From the NCBI GenBank assembly GCA_024643425.1, contig JAHEMY010000015.1, positions 1-35,672 on the forward strand: 35,672 nucleotides of DNA. The letters are read 5' to 3'. The notes under the pieces were generated by a model. The model saw nothing but the letters and a program-made list of their open reading frames with translations, made no database searches and was not told the origin of the DNA. Positions within the stretch are counted from its first letter, which is position 1; every line of letters starts with the position of its first letter. Source of the DNA: Flavobacteriaceae bacterium (GTDB taxonomy: Bacteria > Bacteroidota > Bacteroidia > Flavobacteriales > Flavobacteriaceae). The position numbers and the translations under genes are program-made. Shown here one piece after another: positions 7,424 through 9,494 of the stretch.

Positions 7424-7507
7424 GGAGAGGTGCCAGAGTGGTAATGGAGCAGATTGCTAATCTGTCAACGGGTAACCGTTGCCAGGGTTCGAATCCCTGT
7501 CTCTCCG
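7424..7507 (+). tRNA. tRNA-Ser (anticodon GCU)
   Basis: A type II tRNA. The acceptor GGAGAGG pairs with TCTCTCC (one G-U). The anticodon stem GCAGA/TCTGT carries loop TTGCTAA with anticodon GCT, reading AGC/AGU codons. A long variable arm (AACGGGTAACCGTT) and the T-arm CAGGGTTCGAATCCCTG follow. The discriminator is G and the 3' CCA is not encoded in full. It is cotranscribed with tRNA-Pro, 36 nt downstream. Confidence 0.97.
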
Positions 7508-7543
7508 CAAGTGAAAAAGTGAATTAACAGCCTAGCTGTTTCA

Positions 7544-7621
7544 CGGGGTGTAGCGTAGCCCGGTTATCGCGCCTGCTTTGGGAGCAGGAGGTCGCAGGTT
7601 CGAATCCTGCCACCCCGACCA
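7544..7621 (+). tRNA. tRNA-Pro (anticodon UGG)
   Basis: Acceptor CGGGGTG pairs with CACCCCG. The anticodon stem CCTGC/GCAGG carries loop TTTGGGA with anticodon TGG. The T-arm is GCAGGTTCGAATCCTGC. The discriminator A is followed by an encoded CCA (7619-7621), unlike tRNA-Ser and tRNA-Arg in this window. Confidence 0.97.
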
Positions 7622-7626
7622 ACAGA

Positions 7627-7656
7627 AGCCCAGCATAGAAGTGCTGGGCTTTTTTA
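7627..7656 (+). terminator. Intrinsic terminator of the tRNA-Ser/Pro unit
   Basis: Nine-bp stem AGCCCAGCA/TGCTGGGCT with a 6-nt loop followed by T6. The U-tract continues as TTTTTTATTTC, which is complementary to an A-rich arm about 30 nt downstream. Confidence 0.9.
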
Positions 7657-7775
7657 TTTCCACAAAGCAAAAGCTTGCTTTATGCTGCCTTGGAAATAAA
7701 AAAGAACATAAACGCGCAGCGTTTAGGGTTTTTGTTGAGCACCGACCCCACTTCAGGATCAACGCAGTAAATCCT
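7649..7775 (+). repeat. Post-tRNA structured element (single copy, behind tRNA-Pro)
   Basis: A non-coding stretch that begins in the terminator's U-tract. A perfect 14-bp inverted repeat, CTTTTTTATTTCCA (7649-7662) and TGGAAATAAAAAAG (7691-7704), encloses a smaller AAAGCAA/TTGCTTT hairpin. Next come a 7-bp hairpin TAAACGC-GCA-GCGTTTA (7709-7725), a 29-nt spacer, and AGGAT (7755-7759) pairing with ATCCT (7771-7775). The same order of parts, with different bases, occurs in each 102-bp repeat behind tRNA-Arg. Function unknown. On the minus strand the 7-bp hairpin is followed by TTTTTTATTTC, so it could also act as a reverse-facing terminator. Confidence 0.6.
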
Positions 7776-7885
7776 TAGGAGTATTTTCGTAAATTGGGGG
7801 ATAGAGTCAATATTAAGTTTGAATAACTCATTTCTTAAATTAAACTTTAATTATTTGAAGATTACATTTTGCTTTATCCTATGCA

Positions 7886-8044
7886 GGTCGCGTCAGTGAT
7901 GGCGCTTATTTTGTGAACGAATTGGTCAAGTCAGACCCAAGATTACCGTTTGGTGGAACCAAAAAATCAGGCTATGGACGTGAGTTAGCAAAGGATGGGA
8001 TGATGGAGTTCGTCAATCGAAAGACTGTTTATGTAAAAAAATAA
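7886..8044 (+). pseudogene. 3' remnant of an NAD(P)-dependent succinate-semialdehyde/aldehyde dehydrogenase gene
   Basis: The frame ending at the TAA of 8042-8044 encodes the C-terminal ~50 residues of a succinate-semialdehyde dehydrogenase-type enzyme. It includes VKSDPRLPFGG, KKSGYGREL and the ending EFVNRKTVYVKK. The frame is open only from 7859 (in-frame TGA at 7856). No start codon precedes the homology, and the catalytic Cys/Glu and NAD-binding parts are absent. It is therefore a truncated remnant that cannot form an enzyme. The conserved residues are intact, which suggests a fairly recent deletion or recombination. It lies between a tRNA locus and the MscS gene, a typical position for rearrangement. 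Confidence 0.8.
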
Positions 8045-8075
8045 TAGACCGCTTATTAATTTGACATTTAAATCT

Positions 8076-8921
8076 ATGGAGACTTTAAAAAATATTCTTG
8101 CGTTGGAGATATTCAGTTTCGATGATTACTCGATCAAAGTCTCGAACCTAGTTGCCGTATTTGTGATCCTTGTGATTACAAGAATTGCATTATGGTTGAT
8201 AAAGAGAGCTTTATTTCGAAAACAGAAAGGAGTCAAAAGGGATAACGGCAATACATATGCTTTATATCAAATCATAAAGTATGTGATCTGGGTGATGGCG
8301 ATCGGATTTATTTTAGAAGCATTAGGAATAAAAGTCACCTTGTTATTAGCAGGTTCTGCGGCTTTATTGGTGGGTGTTGGATTAGGGCTACAACAAACCT
8401 TTAACGATGTTATTTCAGGTATAATTTTACTATCTGAGCGATCCATAAAAATAGATGACGTTTTAGAAATAGATGGTGATATTGTGAAAATAGAAAGTAT
8501 AGGCTTGCGTACCTCTAAAGCCTTAAATAGGGATGATATTTCCATTATTATTCCAAATTCTTTAATCACAACGAGCAAAGTGATTAACTGGAGTCACCAA
8601 TCAGAGAAAACACGATTTAGAATAGACGTAGGGGTCGCTTACGGCAGTGATGTTGATAAGGTCATTAAAATATTAGAGGAAAGTGCGTTTGAGCATGCTG
8701 AAGTTTCAAACAGAGAGTTGGTAGAAGGTAGATTAATGAACTTTGGGAATTCATCGTTGGATTTTCAACTTTTATTTTTTAGCAAAAATATATTCAGAAT
8801 AGGAAAAGTGAAAAGCGATATTAGGCGAATTATTAGTAGAAAATTTTCTGAAAATAATATCACCATTCCTTTTCCACAAATGGATTTGCATCTAAAATCC
8901 GATTCCACAAAAAAAATATGA
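8076..8921 (+). CDS. Small-conductance mechanosensitive channel (MscS family)
   Basis: A 281-residue MscS-type channel that opens under membrane tension to release solutes during hypo-osmotic shock. Two N-terminal helices (about residues 18-38 and 65-85) precede the pore-lining TM3, rich in Gly/Ala (LLAGSAALLVGVGLGLQQ). The conserved NDVISGIILL and the beta-domain follow, with a C-terminal alpha/beta part ending in the ITIPFPQMDLH signature common in the family. I start it at the ATG of 8076; a TTG at 8061 would add five residues without improving the N-terminus. It stands alone, 31 nt after the dehydrogenase remnant. Confidence 0.92.
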   Translation: METLKNILALEIFSFDDYSIKVSNLVAVFVILVITRIALWLIKRALFRKQKGVKRDNGNTYALYQIIKYVIWVMAIGFILEALGIKVTLLLAGSAALLVGVGLGLQQTFNDVISGIILLSERSIKIDDVLEIDGDIVKIESIGLRTSKALNRDDISIIIPNSLITTSKVINWSHQSEKTRFRIDVGVAYGSDVDKVIKILEESAFEHAEVSNRELVEGRLMNFGNSSLDFQLLFFSKNIFRIGKVKSDIRRIISRKFSENNITIPFPQMDLHLKSDSTKKI

Positions 8922-8963
8922 TCAAGCTGCGATAGGGAGTACTGCATTAATTTCTTAATAATA

Positions 8964-8994
8964 TTGTGAGGTTCGAATGGTGTAATTATATTTG
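8964..8994 (+). promoter_or_regulatory. Promoter of tRNA-Arg
   Basis: TTG, exactly 20 nt, then TATATTTG, a perfect TTG-N20-TAnnTTTG promoter. Predicted start near 9001, about 35 nt ahead of the tRNA. It closely resembles the promoter at 7355-7385. Confidence 0.75.
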
Positions 8995-9035
8995 CACCGC
9001 TTTTAGCGTGAGTTAAGAGCACTTTCAGTAGAAAG

Positions 9036-9109
9036 GGTCGCGTAGCTCAGTTGGATAGAGCATCTGCCTTCTAAGCAGACGGTCACAGGTTCGAATCCTG
9101 TCGCGATCA
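9036..9109 (+). tRNA. tRNA-Arg (anticodon UCU)
   Basis: Acceptor GGTCGCG pairs with CGCGATC (one G-U). D-arm GCTCAGTTGGATAGAGC, anticodon stem TCTGC/GCAGA with loop CTTCTAA (anticodon TCT, reading AGA/AGG), and T-arm ACAGGTTCGAATCCTGT. The discriminator is A, and CCA is not encoded. Confidence 0.97.
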
Positions 9110-9120
9110 CTTAAAGCACA

Positions 9121-9150
9121 AAGCCATGCAAGATTGCATGGCTTTTTTAT
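9121..9150 (+). terminator. Intrinsic terminator of tRNA-Arg
   Basis: Ten-bp stem AAGCCATGCA/TGCATGGCTT with a 4-nt loop, followed by a T run and ATTTC. As at tRNA-Pro, CTTTTTTATTTC (9142-9153) is complementary to GAAATAAAAAAG at the start of the downstream repeats. Confidence 0.9.
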
Positions 9151-9187
9151 TTCGACAAATCACCAAGCTAGCTTGGGGGGTTTAGGA

Positions 9188-9289
9188 GAAATAAAAAAGG
9201 CTAGACTTGCGAAGCAAGGATGCTTTGTATTTTCACACGGGAGATGCAAGGACCTGCAATCCTGTCTTAATGGCTTGGCAGTTTTGTAG
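9188..9289 (+). repeat. 102-bp tandem repeat, copy 1
   Basis: Unit begins GAAATAAAAAAG. The first 65 nt (9188-9252) are identical in all three copies. They contain the small hairpin CTTGC-GAA-GCAAG (9206-9218) and the spacer with CACACGGGAGATGC. The 3' part (ACCTGCAATCCTGTCT and a diverged 22-nt linker) varies. Non-coding; no known family assigned. Confidence 0.85.
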
Positions 9290-9391
9290 GAAATAAAAAA
9301 GGCTAGACTTGCGAAGCAAGGATGCTTTGTATTTTCACACGGGAGATGCAAGGATCTGTAATCCTGTCTAGCTTGCTAGAATGATTTAGGA
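9290..9391 (+). repeat. 102-bp tandem repeat, copy 2
   Basis: Exactly 102 bp after copy 1. This copy has the most complete fold: GCTAGAC near its start is complementary to GTCTAGC near 9366-9372, enclosing the CTTGC/GCAAG hairpin and a perfect AGGAT-CTGTA-ATCCT hairpin (9351-9365). Confidence 0.85.
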
Positions 9392-9472
9392 GAAATAAAA
9401 AAGGCTAGACTTGCGAAGCAAGGATGCTTTGTATTTTCACACGGGAGATGCAAGGATCTTTATTCCTGGTTA
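9392..9472 (+). repeat. 102-bp tandem repeat, copy 3 (3' end diverged)
   Basis: Starts 102 bp after copy 2 with the same 65-nt core. The 3' hairpin survives as AGGA...TCCT. Similarity fades by about 9472, close to the stop codon of the convergent gene at 9495. Confidence 0.8.
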
Positions 9473-9494
9473 GATTCTAAATTAATCGAAGCAT

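Follow-up and report, generated by a model that had tools for sequence, protein, structure and literature searches.

Short non-coding elements with a four-way-junction fold behind tRNA genes of a Flavobacteriaceae bacterium: a probable family inserting at the T-arm

Genomic islands and prophages integrate in tRNA genes via tyrosine recombinases, the T-arm and the anticodon of tRNA and transfer-messenger RNA (tmRNA) genes being classic integrase targets. The tyrT repeats of Escherichia coli (rtT RNA) lie in tandem after a tRNA gene and include a portion of its 3′ end, and integron attC boxes follow the consensus RYYYAAC/GTTRRRY. Two further systems are of interest for comparison. Repetitive extragenic palindromes (REP/REPIN) with RAYT (Y1) transposases are short, palindromic, non-coding and present in many copies, and GIY-YIG homing elements, such as T4 SegB, are associated with tRNA genes (literature on the former includes PMC3733652, PMC3116915 and PMC2817692 and on the latter PMC13096335 and PMC2988022). 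Here we analyze a stretch of 35,672 nucleotides, hereafter the window, from a Flavobacteriaceae bacterium (GCA_024643425.1, contig JAHEMY010000015.1, positions 1 to 35,672; G000 among the genomes numbered here, loci being numbered L), in which a tRNA-Pro and a tRNA-Arg gene are each followed by a structured module. An earlier sequence-only reading had described these as one modular post-tRNA element of unlike sequence and kept shape, with no named family known to it. Our results indicate that both modules are probably members of a family of non-coding elements of about 100 to 180 bp that insert into tRNA genes at the T-arm; tmRNA genes, it seems, are targets as well.

Like tRNA-gene islands, these elements target tRNA and tmRNA genes, restore the 3′ part of the gene, displace the old end and can accrete in tandem; unlike islands, they measure only about 100 to 180 bp, come without an integrase and contain a covarying palindrome. 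An encoded integrase, by which tRNA-targeting integrative elements can be recognized, was not found in the window elements, since the open reading frame (ORF) list of the window holds no ORF of at least 80 amino acids confined to either of them. With rtT they share tandem repeats behind a tRNA gene that carry part of its 3′ end, but rtT belongs to one operon in E. coli, whereas the present elements lie behind many tRNAs and have a four-way fold and a T-arm mimic. Membership in rtT was rejected, as no Rfam match to it was obtained in the window at the gathering threshold or at ten loci at E values up to 1. Nothing but tRNA reached the gathering score in the window, and the ten loci gave, besides tRNA, only sub-gathering matches, mostly to microRNA families. 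The titles and abstract openings of the literature matches listed describe no such element either; a named family with this layout was thus not found.

The elements resemble the REP/REPIN palindromes in being short, palindromic, non-coding and multi-copy, but they are tied to tRNA genes and duplicate the tRNA 3′ end. A REP/RAYT system was rejected, as this genome, a 96% complete draft, shows no match to a Y1 partner (PF01797); the family was likewise without a match in G117, G140 and G129 and had one in G153. Integron attC cassettes offer a proposed analogue in their folded single-strand site with mismatched bases and in their stacking at one site. There are no cassette genes here, however, and an attC identity was discarded because the boxes do not, by eye, fit RYYYAAC..GTTRRRY, the recombinase search having covered the general family PF00589 only. 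The association with tRNA genes recalls GIY-YIG homing elements, and small GIY-YIG frames do occur at tRNAs in these genomes; the window modules, in contrast, are protein-free and duplicate the T-arm side. Compared with miniature inverted-repeat transposable elements, inner inverted repeats are present, but the duplication is the tRNA 3′ part rather than a short target of fixed length; no parent transposon turned up, no systematic search for one having been made. We therefore class them with the known elements that insert into tRNA genes, the missing piece being the enzyme.

The first element, of about 154 bp, follows tRNA-Pro(TGG) (7544-7621, + strand, as for all parts below; ARAGORN, with an Rfam match at 7544-7618). 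The trailer CAACAGAAGCCC (7620-7631) is the left arm of an outer stem, H4, and pairs through 10 Watson-Crick and 2 G·U pairs with trailer′ (7726-7737), located from the sequence. The further parts are H1, the terminator hairpin of tRNA-Pro (7626-7651); the terminator U-tract CTTTTTTATTTCCA (7649-7662), left arm of H2; a central hairpin, AAAGCAAAAGCTTGCTTT (7664-7681); the A-tract (7691-7704), right arm of H2 and exact complement of the U-tract; and H3, the small hairpin TAAACGC-GCA-GCGTTTA with its GCA triloop (7709-7725). The 12-nt core of the U-tract, CTTTTTTATTTC (7649-7660), has its complement GAAATAAAAAAG at 7693-7704, and the exact match reaches 14 nt. Behind trailer′, the element ends in a T-arm-like sequence, AGGATCAACGCAGTAAATCCT (7755-7775), with AGGAT at 7755-7759 and ATCCT at 7771-7775. 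The second element, of about 366 bp, follows tRNA-Arg(TCT) (9036-9110; ARAGORN). Its trailer, H1 terminator hairpin (9120-9145) and U-tract CTTTTTTATTTC (9142-9153) occupy 9111-9153 and are followed by a central hairpin, CCAAGC-TA-GCTTGG (9163-9176), the A-tract GAAATAAAAAAG (9188-9199), complementary to 9142-9153, the H3 hairpin CTTGC-GAA-GCAAG (9206-9218) and the T-arm-like end AGGACCTGCAATCCT (9249-9263). The gap between U-tract and A-tract is 32 nt in the Pro element and 34 nt in the Arg element. The right half of the Arg element forms a 102-bp tandem array of three copies (9171-9476), at 9171-9272, 9273-9374 and 9375-9476, the second and third being 87% and 86% identical to the first. The parts and positions reported earlier behind both tRNAs are thus correct; the array, the trailer:trailer′ pairing and the tRNA-like AGGAT..ATCCT end had not been reported.

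The pairing of U-tract and A-tract, also proposed in that reading, stands out clearly from chance. Exact 12-nt inverted repeats with a gap of 15 to 60 nt occur in the whole window only as the Pro and Arg pairs, and 1,000 local dinucleotide shuffles per region never reached the 14 nt (Pro) or 12 nt (Arg) observed. Of 20 shuffles of the whole window, 17 gave no such repeat and 3 gave one.

By eye, the same order of parts recurs behind about 11 of the 28 distinct cluster-final tRNAs of this genome (29 rows, Arg-tct having been entered twice), namely, Pro-tgg, Arg-tct, Val, Ala, Arg-acg, Arg-tcg, Arg-cct, two Met, Pro-ggg and Ser-tga; two Leu-caa loci, with a related yet different fold, were counted outside the 11. 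In the 11 loci, 8 to 13 of 13 A-tract positions are complementary to the U-tract of the same locus, and the stretch after the small hairpin approximates the complement of its own trailer, in a sequence that differs from locus to locus. The layout was also seen by eye behind tRNAs of four relatives, again in locus-specific sequence. A DNA similarity search with one 102-nt unit found nothing beyond its own locus in this genome and 98 others, indicating that the layout is conserved while the sequence is not. About 17 of the 28 tRNAs, for example, Glu, Cys, Leu-gag, Thr-ggt and Trp, lack the module (by eye); such loci, which by the terms of the sequence-only reading would refute it, leave the kept shape standing and fit patchy insertion. 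Three contigs of this genome start or stop within elements (L009, L022 and L327), so the copy number is probably underestimated, and the elements may explain assembly breaks at tRNA genes.

Both window modules belong to a four-way-junction fold that is kept by compensatory change. Among 125 of 137 cluster-final records (those long enough and with no tRNA within 200 nt), the matched inverted-repeat score exceeded the mean of mismatched pairs in five of five genomes, with means of 12.3 versus 8.9 in this genome (25 records) and of 9.9 to 11.4 versus 8.4 to 8.7 in the other four, although just 4 to 6 loci per genome lay above the 99th percentile of mismatched pairs. In 28 elements chosen by eye among the 137 records, U-tract:A-tract and trailer:trailer′ complementarity were each locus specific (0 of 2,000 permutations); elements of other geometry had been left out, namely, the relatives' Pro-ggg/Pro-tgg elements, the GAATAAAT type at Arg-tct/Arg-acg and the two Leu-caa elements of this genome. 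The trailer:trailer′ pairing of the window Pro element covaries in relatives. Of 16 listed elements, nine Val/Arg elements were aligned in one set and three others in a second, and four were left unaligned. In the nine, pairing is kept in 98% of the cells of the outer stem and of the upper terminator hairpin, and 10 of 17 pairs show change on both sides, the H4 and H1 columns having been picked after inspection of the alignment and H2 left unscored because the center aligns poorly. Shuffles matched these values in 0 of 500 cases on four of five measures and in 15 of 500 on the fifth, and shifting the partner by one column reduced pairing to 40 to 43%. For the terminator hairpin alone, shuffles reached two of the five measures (2/500 and 73/500). 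A C opposite an A, beside an invariant G·U pair of the outer stem, is unpaired yet conserved in all nine. For three Ser-tga elements, RNAalifold independently returned the four-way junction, with both-sided change at 14 of 55 pairs. The covariation that the sequence-only reading had looked for is thus present, and its cruciform is a sensible picture.

The hairpin loops differ between arms. With equal search settings, GNA triloops were found in 15 of 26 H3 hairpins and 0 of 28 H1 hairpins of the 28 elements (Fisher P = 9e-7); a first run with unequal settings, which took another hairpin at tRNA-Arg-tct than the one given above, had yielded 14 of 25 for H3. GNRA tetraloops occur in 7 of the 28 H1 loops. 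C-GNA-G triloops give DNA hairpins exceptional stability, whereas in RNA tetraloops are favored, and we therefore prefer a role of the fold in DNA.

The AGGAT..ATCCT end resembles a tRNA T-arm with a replaced loop; by eye, many elements read GGAT-C...A-ATCC where tRNA reads GG-TTCGA-ATCC. At well-preserved loci, the 3′ end of the same tRNA comes once more after this end, and then a second trailer and terminator. Across five genomes, 26 of 162 tRNA records repeat the last 14 nt of their own tRNA, allowing up to 2 mismatches, in the 700 nt downstream, compared to 0 of 162 when the tail of another tRNA was used. By eye, these 26 comprise 13 non-coding elements with a T-arm junction, 5 cases with a GIY-YIG frame and 8 other repeats. 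Restoration of the tRNA 3′ end with a displaced old copy is thus seen at other loci. In the window only remnants are left: AATCCTGTC (9258-9266), part of the 3′ end of the window tRNA-Arg itself, follows the first two Arg units, and AATCCT follows the Pro element, where the displaced tRNA-Pro 3′ end expected after 7775 is eroded, its counterparts at other loci being intact.

Pairs of filled and empty sites point to insertion. The tRNA-Met gene of G117 (L205) is empty, with a trailer beginning CTACTAAGCgaGACGCAT, while that of G129 (L226) is filled and has CTACTAAGCttGACGCAT after the displaced 3′ end; the empty tRNA is directly followed by the sequence found past this end, CTACTAAGC..GACGCAT. 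Likewise, tRNA-Leu-taa is empty in G153 (L144) and filled in G140 (L168), the trailer concerned being ACAAAAGC. Stacks of elements differ between close relatives. At the orthologous tRNA-Arg-acg of G309 and G246, which belong to one genus and share the upstream flank of this gene, we found three and two elements, respectively. The two genomes share one of these (its first ~125 nt differ by 4 mismatches and 2 gaps), but its neighbor on the tRNA side is wholly unlike (173 nt in G309 versus 114 nt in G246), with tRNA 3′ ends between. In G392, two elements succeed each other behind one 3′ end, which we take to be that of tmRNA. Related elements also occur at different tRNAs: a comparison of 133 regions gave 36 matching pairs at E ≤ 1e-6 in which the tRNAs bear different names, and these pairs include other repeats and one coding element. 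Examples are Arg-tct and Arg-acg of G153 (88% over 85 nt), Arg-tct of G129 and Arg-acg of this genome (71% over 208 nt) and the modules at the window Pro-tgg and the Ala of this genome (81% over 54 nt). Taken together, filled and empty sites, unlike stacked elements in congeners and relatedness across tRNAs argue for insertion into tRNA genes with restoration of the 3′ end.

On this basis, each copy would supply a new tRNA 3′ end together with its own trailer and terminator, the tRNA staying whole, and the old 3′ end, trailer and terminator would be pushed downstream behind the T-arm-like hairpin. Between its ends, the element is a palindrome, imperfect but capable of folding into a four-way junction, with the trailer:trailer′ stem, the terminator hairpin, the U-tract:A-tract stem bearing the central hairpin, and the small hairpin with its 3-nt loop as arms. 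Insertion would be by site-specific recombination, and the acting form of the fold may be (single-stranded) DNA, possibly one that a trans-acting recombinase uses as its substrate. Afterwards, the right half could expand in tandem while the displaced tRNA end decays, which would give the state of the window. If this is true, tRNA genes, known as docking sites of large islands, also host gene-free elements hardly longer than a tRNA, which replace its end and terminator, and it becomes testable what moves them, whether selection acts on DNA or RNA and what share of bacterial tRNA trailers and terminators is of mobile origin. A more specific version, which we put forward tentatively and hold to be possible rather than probable, is that protein-free cassettes of ~150 bp move as folded single-stranded DNA, are put in at the T-arm by a host recombinase (e.g., XerC/D) or a trans-acting nuclease and stack like integron cassettes, with the tRNA kept functional; the four-way junction, the GNA-triloop hairpin and the T-arm mimic with its C·A mismatch would be features of such a folded-DNA cassette.

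The module might instead be a cis-acting RNA structure in the tRNA transcript, selected for terminating in both directions, for trapping read-through or for guiding the trimming of 3′ ends. This would fit its start at the tRNA trailer, its overlap with the terminator, its compensatory pairing and the GNRA tetraloops of H1, as well as the folding of four units as RNA, which on the + strand is better than that of shuffles (z of -2.54, -2.29, -3.13 and -2.56) and than that of the - strand (-0.68, -0.46, -2.23 and -1.79). We nevertheless consider it quite unlikely, given that so many tRNAs of this genome do without the module, that tRNA 3′ ends are duplicated and elements stacked, that H3 prefers GNA triloops while H1 has none and that the A-tract is transcribed only once the terminator has formed. 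The order of parts also bears on the earlier suggestion that the U-tract/A-tract pairing could compete with the tRNA terminator: the terminator hairpin would be complete before the A-tract is transcribed, and each element has a terminator of its own, leaving competition unsupported. It was rejected as the primary reading, the own terminators and the tRNA 3′-end duplication pointing to inserted elements; what is supported of the sequence-only reading is the modular element with unlike sequence and kept shape.

The elements could also be partners of other mobile DNA, or not mobile at all. As non-autonomous partners of small GIY-YIG endonuclease elements at tRNAs, which would be compatible with insertion at the T-arm, they would have candidate enzymes: of the 18 small GIY-YIG frames (<200 amino acids) in these five genomes, 11 lie on a fetched stretch that also includes a tRNA, three of these 11 being further copies in one tandem array, compared to 0 of 10 larger frames, and in five records a duplicated tRNA part follows the frame, the same tRNA-restoring principle as in the non-coding elements. 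However, this duplication begins in the anticodon arm or further upstream and not in the T-arm (by eye), and no shared end sequence has been demonstrated; these genes look like a separate tRNA-homing element, and while they are a candidate partner, we judge the partnership unlikely. That the elements are what remains, as solo attachment ends, of ordinary tyrosine-recombinase islands after loss of the middle would agree with the T-arm and anticodon as integrase targets and with an island-like remnant of 1.7 kb with TTGTACG-type repeats (by eye) at the G309 tRNA that bears stacked elements. Random deletion would hardly leave remnants that recur in one layout at many tRNAs and contain an internal palindrome with covariation, though, and just two tyrosine recombinases (PF00589) were found in this genome, albeit in an assembly 96% complete. 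Their frames are of 314 and 315 amino acids, neither on the window contig, and their size and their counterparts in the other four genomes suggest XerC/XerD; we regard this origin as very improbable. That the elements arose where they are, with template switching and tandem copying of the tRNA 3′ end and terminator but no mobility, appears equally improbable. Template switching can create and repair palindromes, and right halves do expand in tandem, at L009 and L040 besides the window Arg element, but related elements lie behind different tRNAs, unlike elements occupy one orthologous tRNA in congeners, and the old and new trailers of filled and empty pairs differ.

Several observations weigh against insertion at the T-arm or against a fold acting as DNA. 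No mobilizing enzyme was identified and neither excision nor transfer was seen, mobility resting on the filled/empty comparisons; at the two window loci erosion has affected the displaced tRNA 3′ ends, so the case for insertion rests on other loci, and the G309 stack sits not directly after an intact tRNA but behind a further 1.7-kb insertion that duplicates the tRNA from the anticodon arm on. Compensatory change is equally expected of a functional RNA, the invariant G·U pair in H4 of the nine Val/Arg elements favors RNA over DNA, and the better folding of the + strand likewise points to RNA. Wider searches gave mixed results. A subtype motif was found in 45 of 395 genomes of the order, compared to 2 of 395 for its reversed control, but this search is noisy, with an intact tRNA just upstream (ARAGORN) in 1 of 30 loci. 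Eight of the remaining 29 were viewed and four are elements (L300, L303, L308 and L319), with tRNA or tmRNA 3′ ends by eye; L300 and L303 belong to another family, f11. The own-tail signal was weak (8/131 versus 3/131 in the control) in 80 named loci, most of which cover no more than the Ser/Pro/Arg cluster. By eye, three of the eight cases are clear, two come from one genome with another layout, one lies beside a masked stretch and two are chance-like. Clear cases among the named loci are IP30a_bin.12, Altibacter sp. EAC109 and Polaribacter sp. HJF.25; Ulvibacter antarcticus has a tandem layout of a different kind.

Other sequences were noticed at these sites. The remnant in G309 (L332/L333) lies in the duplication of the tRNA-Arg anticodon arm, has its TTGTACG-type repeats at the ends and contains a helix-turn-helix-like frame (by eye) and a membrane-like protein of 263 amino acids without a Pfam match at 0.001. 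Small GIY-YIG genes at tRNAs (L234, L192, L185, L150, L241 and L254) are accompanied by a duplicated part with an altered anticodon or variable region, and G140 has four tandem GIY-YIG copies and pseudo-tRNA-Pro-like pieces beside tRNA-Pro. Away from tRNAs, the GIY-YIG frames at L240, L245 and L255 have short repeats on their flanks (e.g., of the GTCAGTTCGAGTGATCC and TGTCATTCAGAG types), as if the nuclease traveled with them. A second palindrome family, of the GGCCCCTCGCTAAAAATGTCC..GGACATTTTCTTAACGCTCGGTC type, also lies behind tRNA genes (L181, L224, L191, L196, L199, L019 and L214), in some cases with a duplicated tRNA end. In the window itself, the tRNA cluster (7424-9110), which includes a tRNA-Ser at 7424-7508 (ARAGORN), sits downstream of an ORF of 679 amino acids. 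Between the tRNA-Pro element and an MscS-type channel gene (8061-8921) lie the orphan C-terminal 52 codons of an aldehyde dehydrogenase (7886-8044; PF00171, E 4e-8), a stranded gene fragment.

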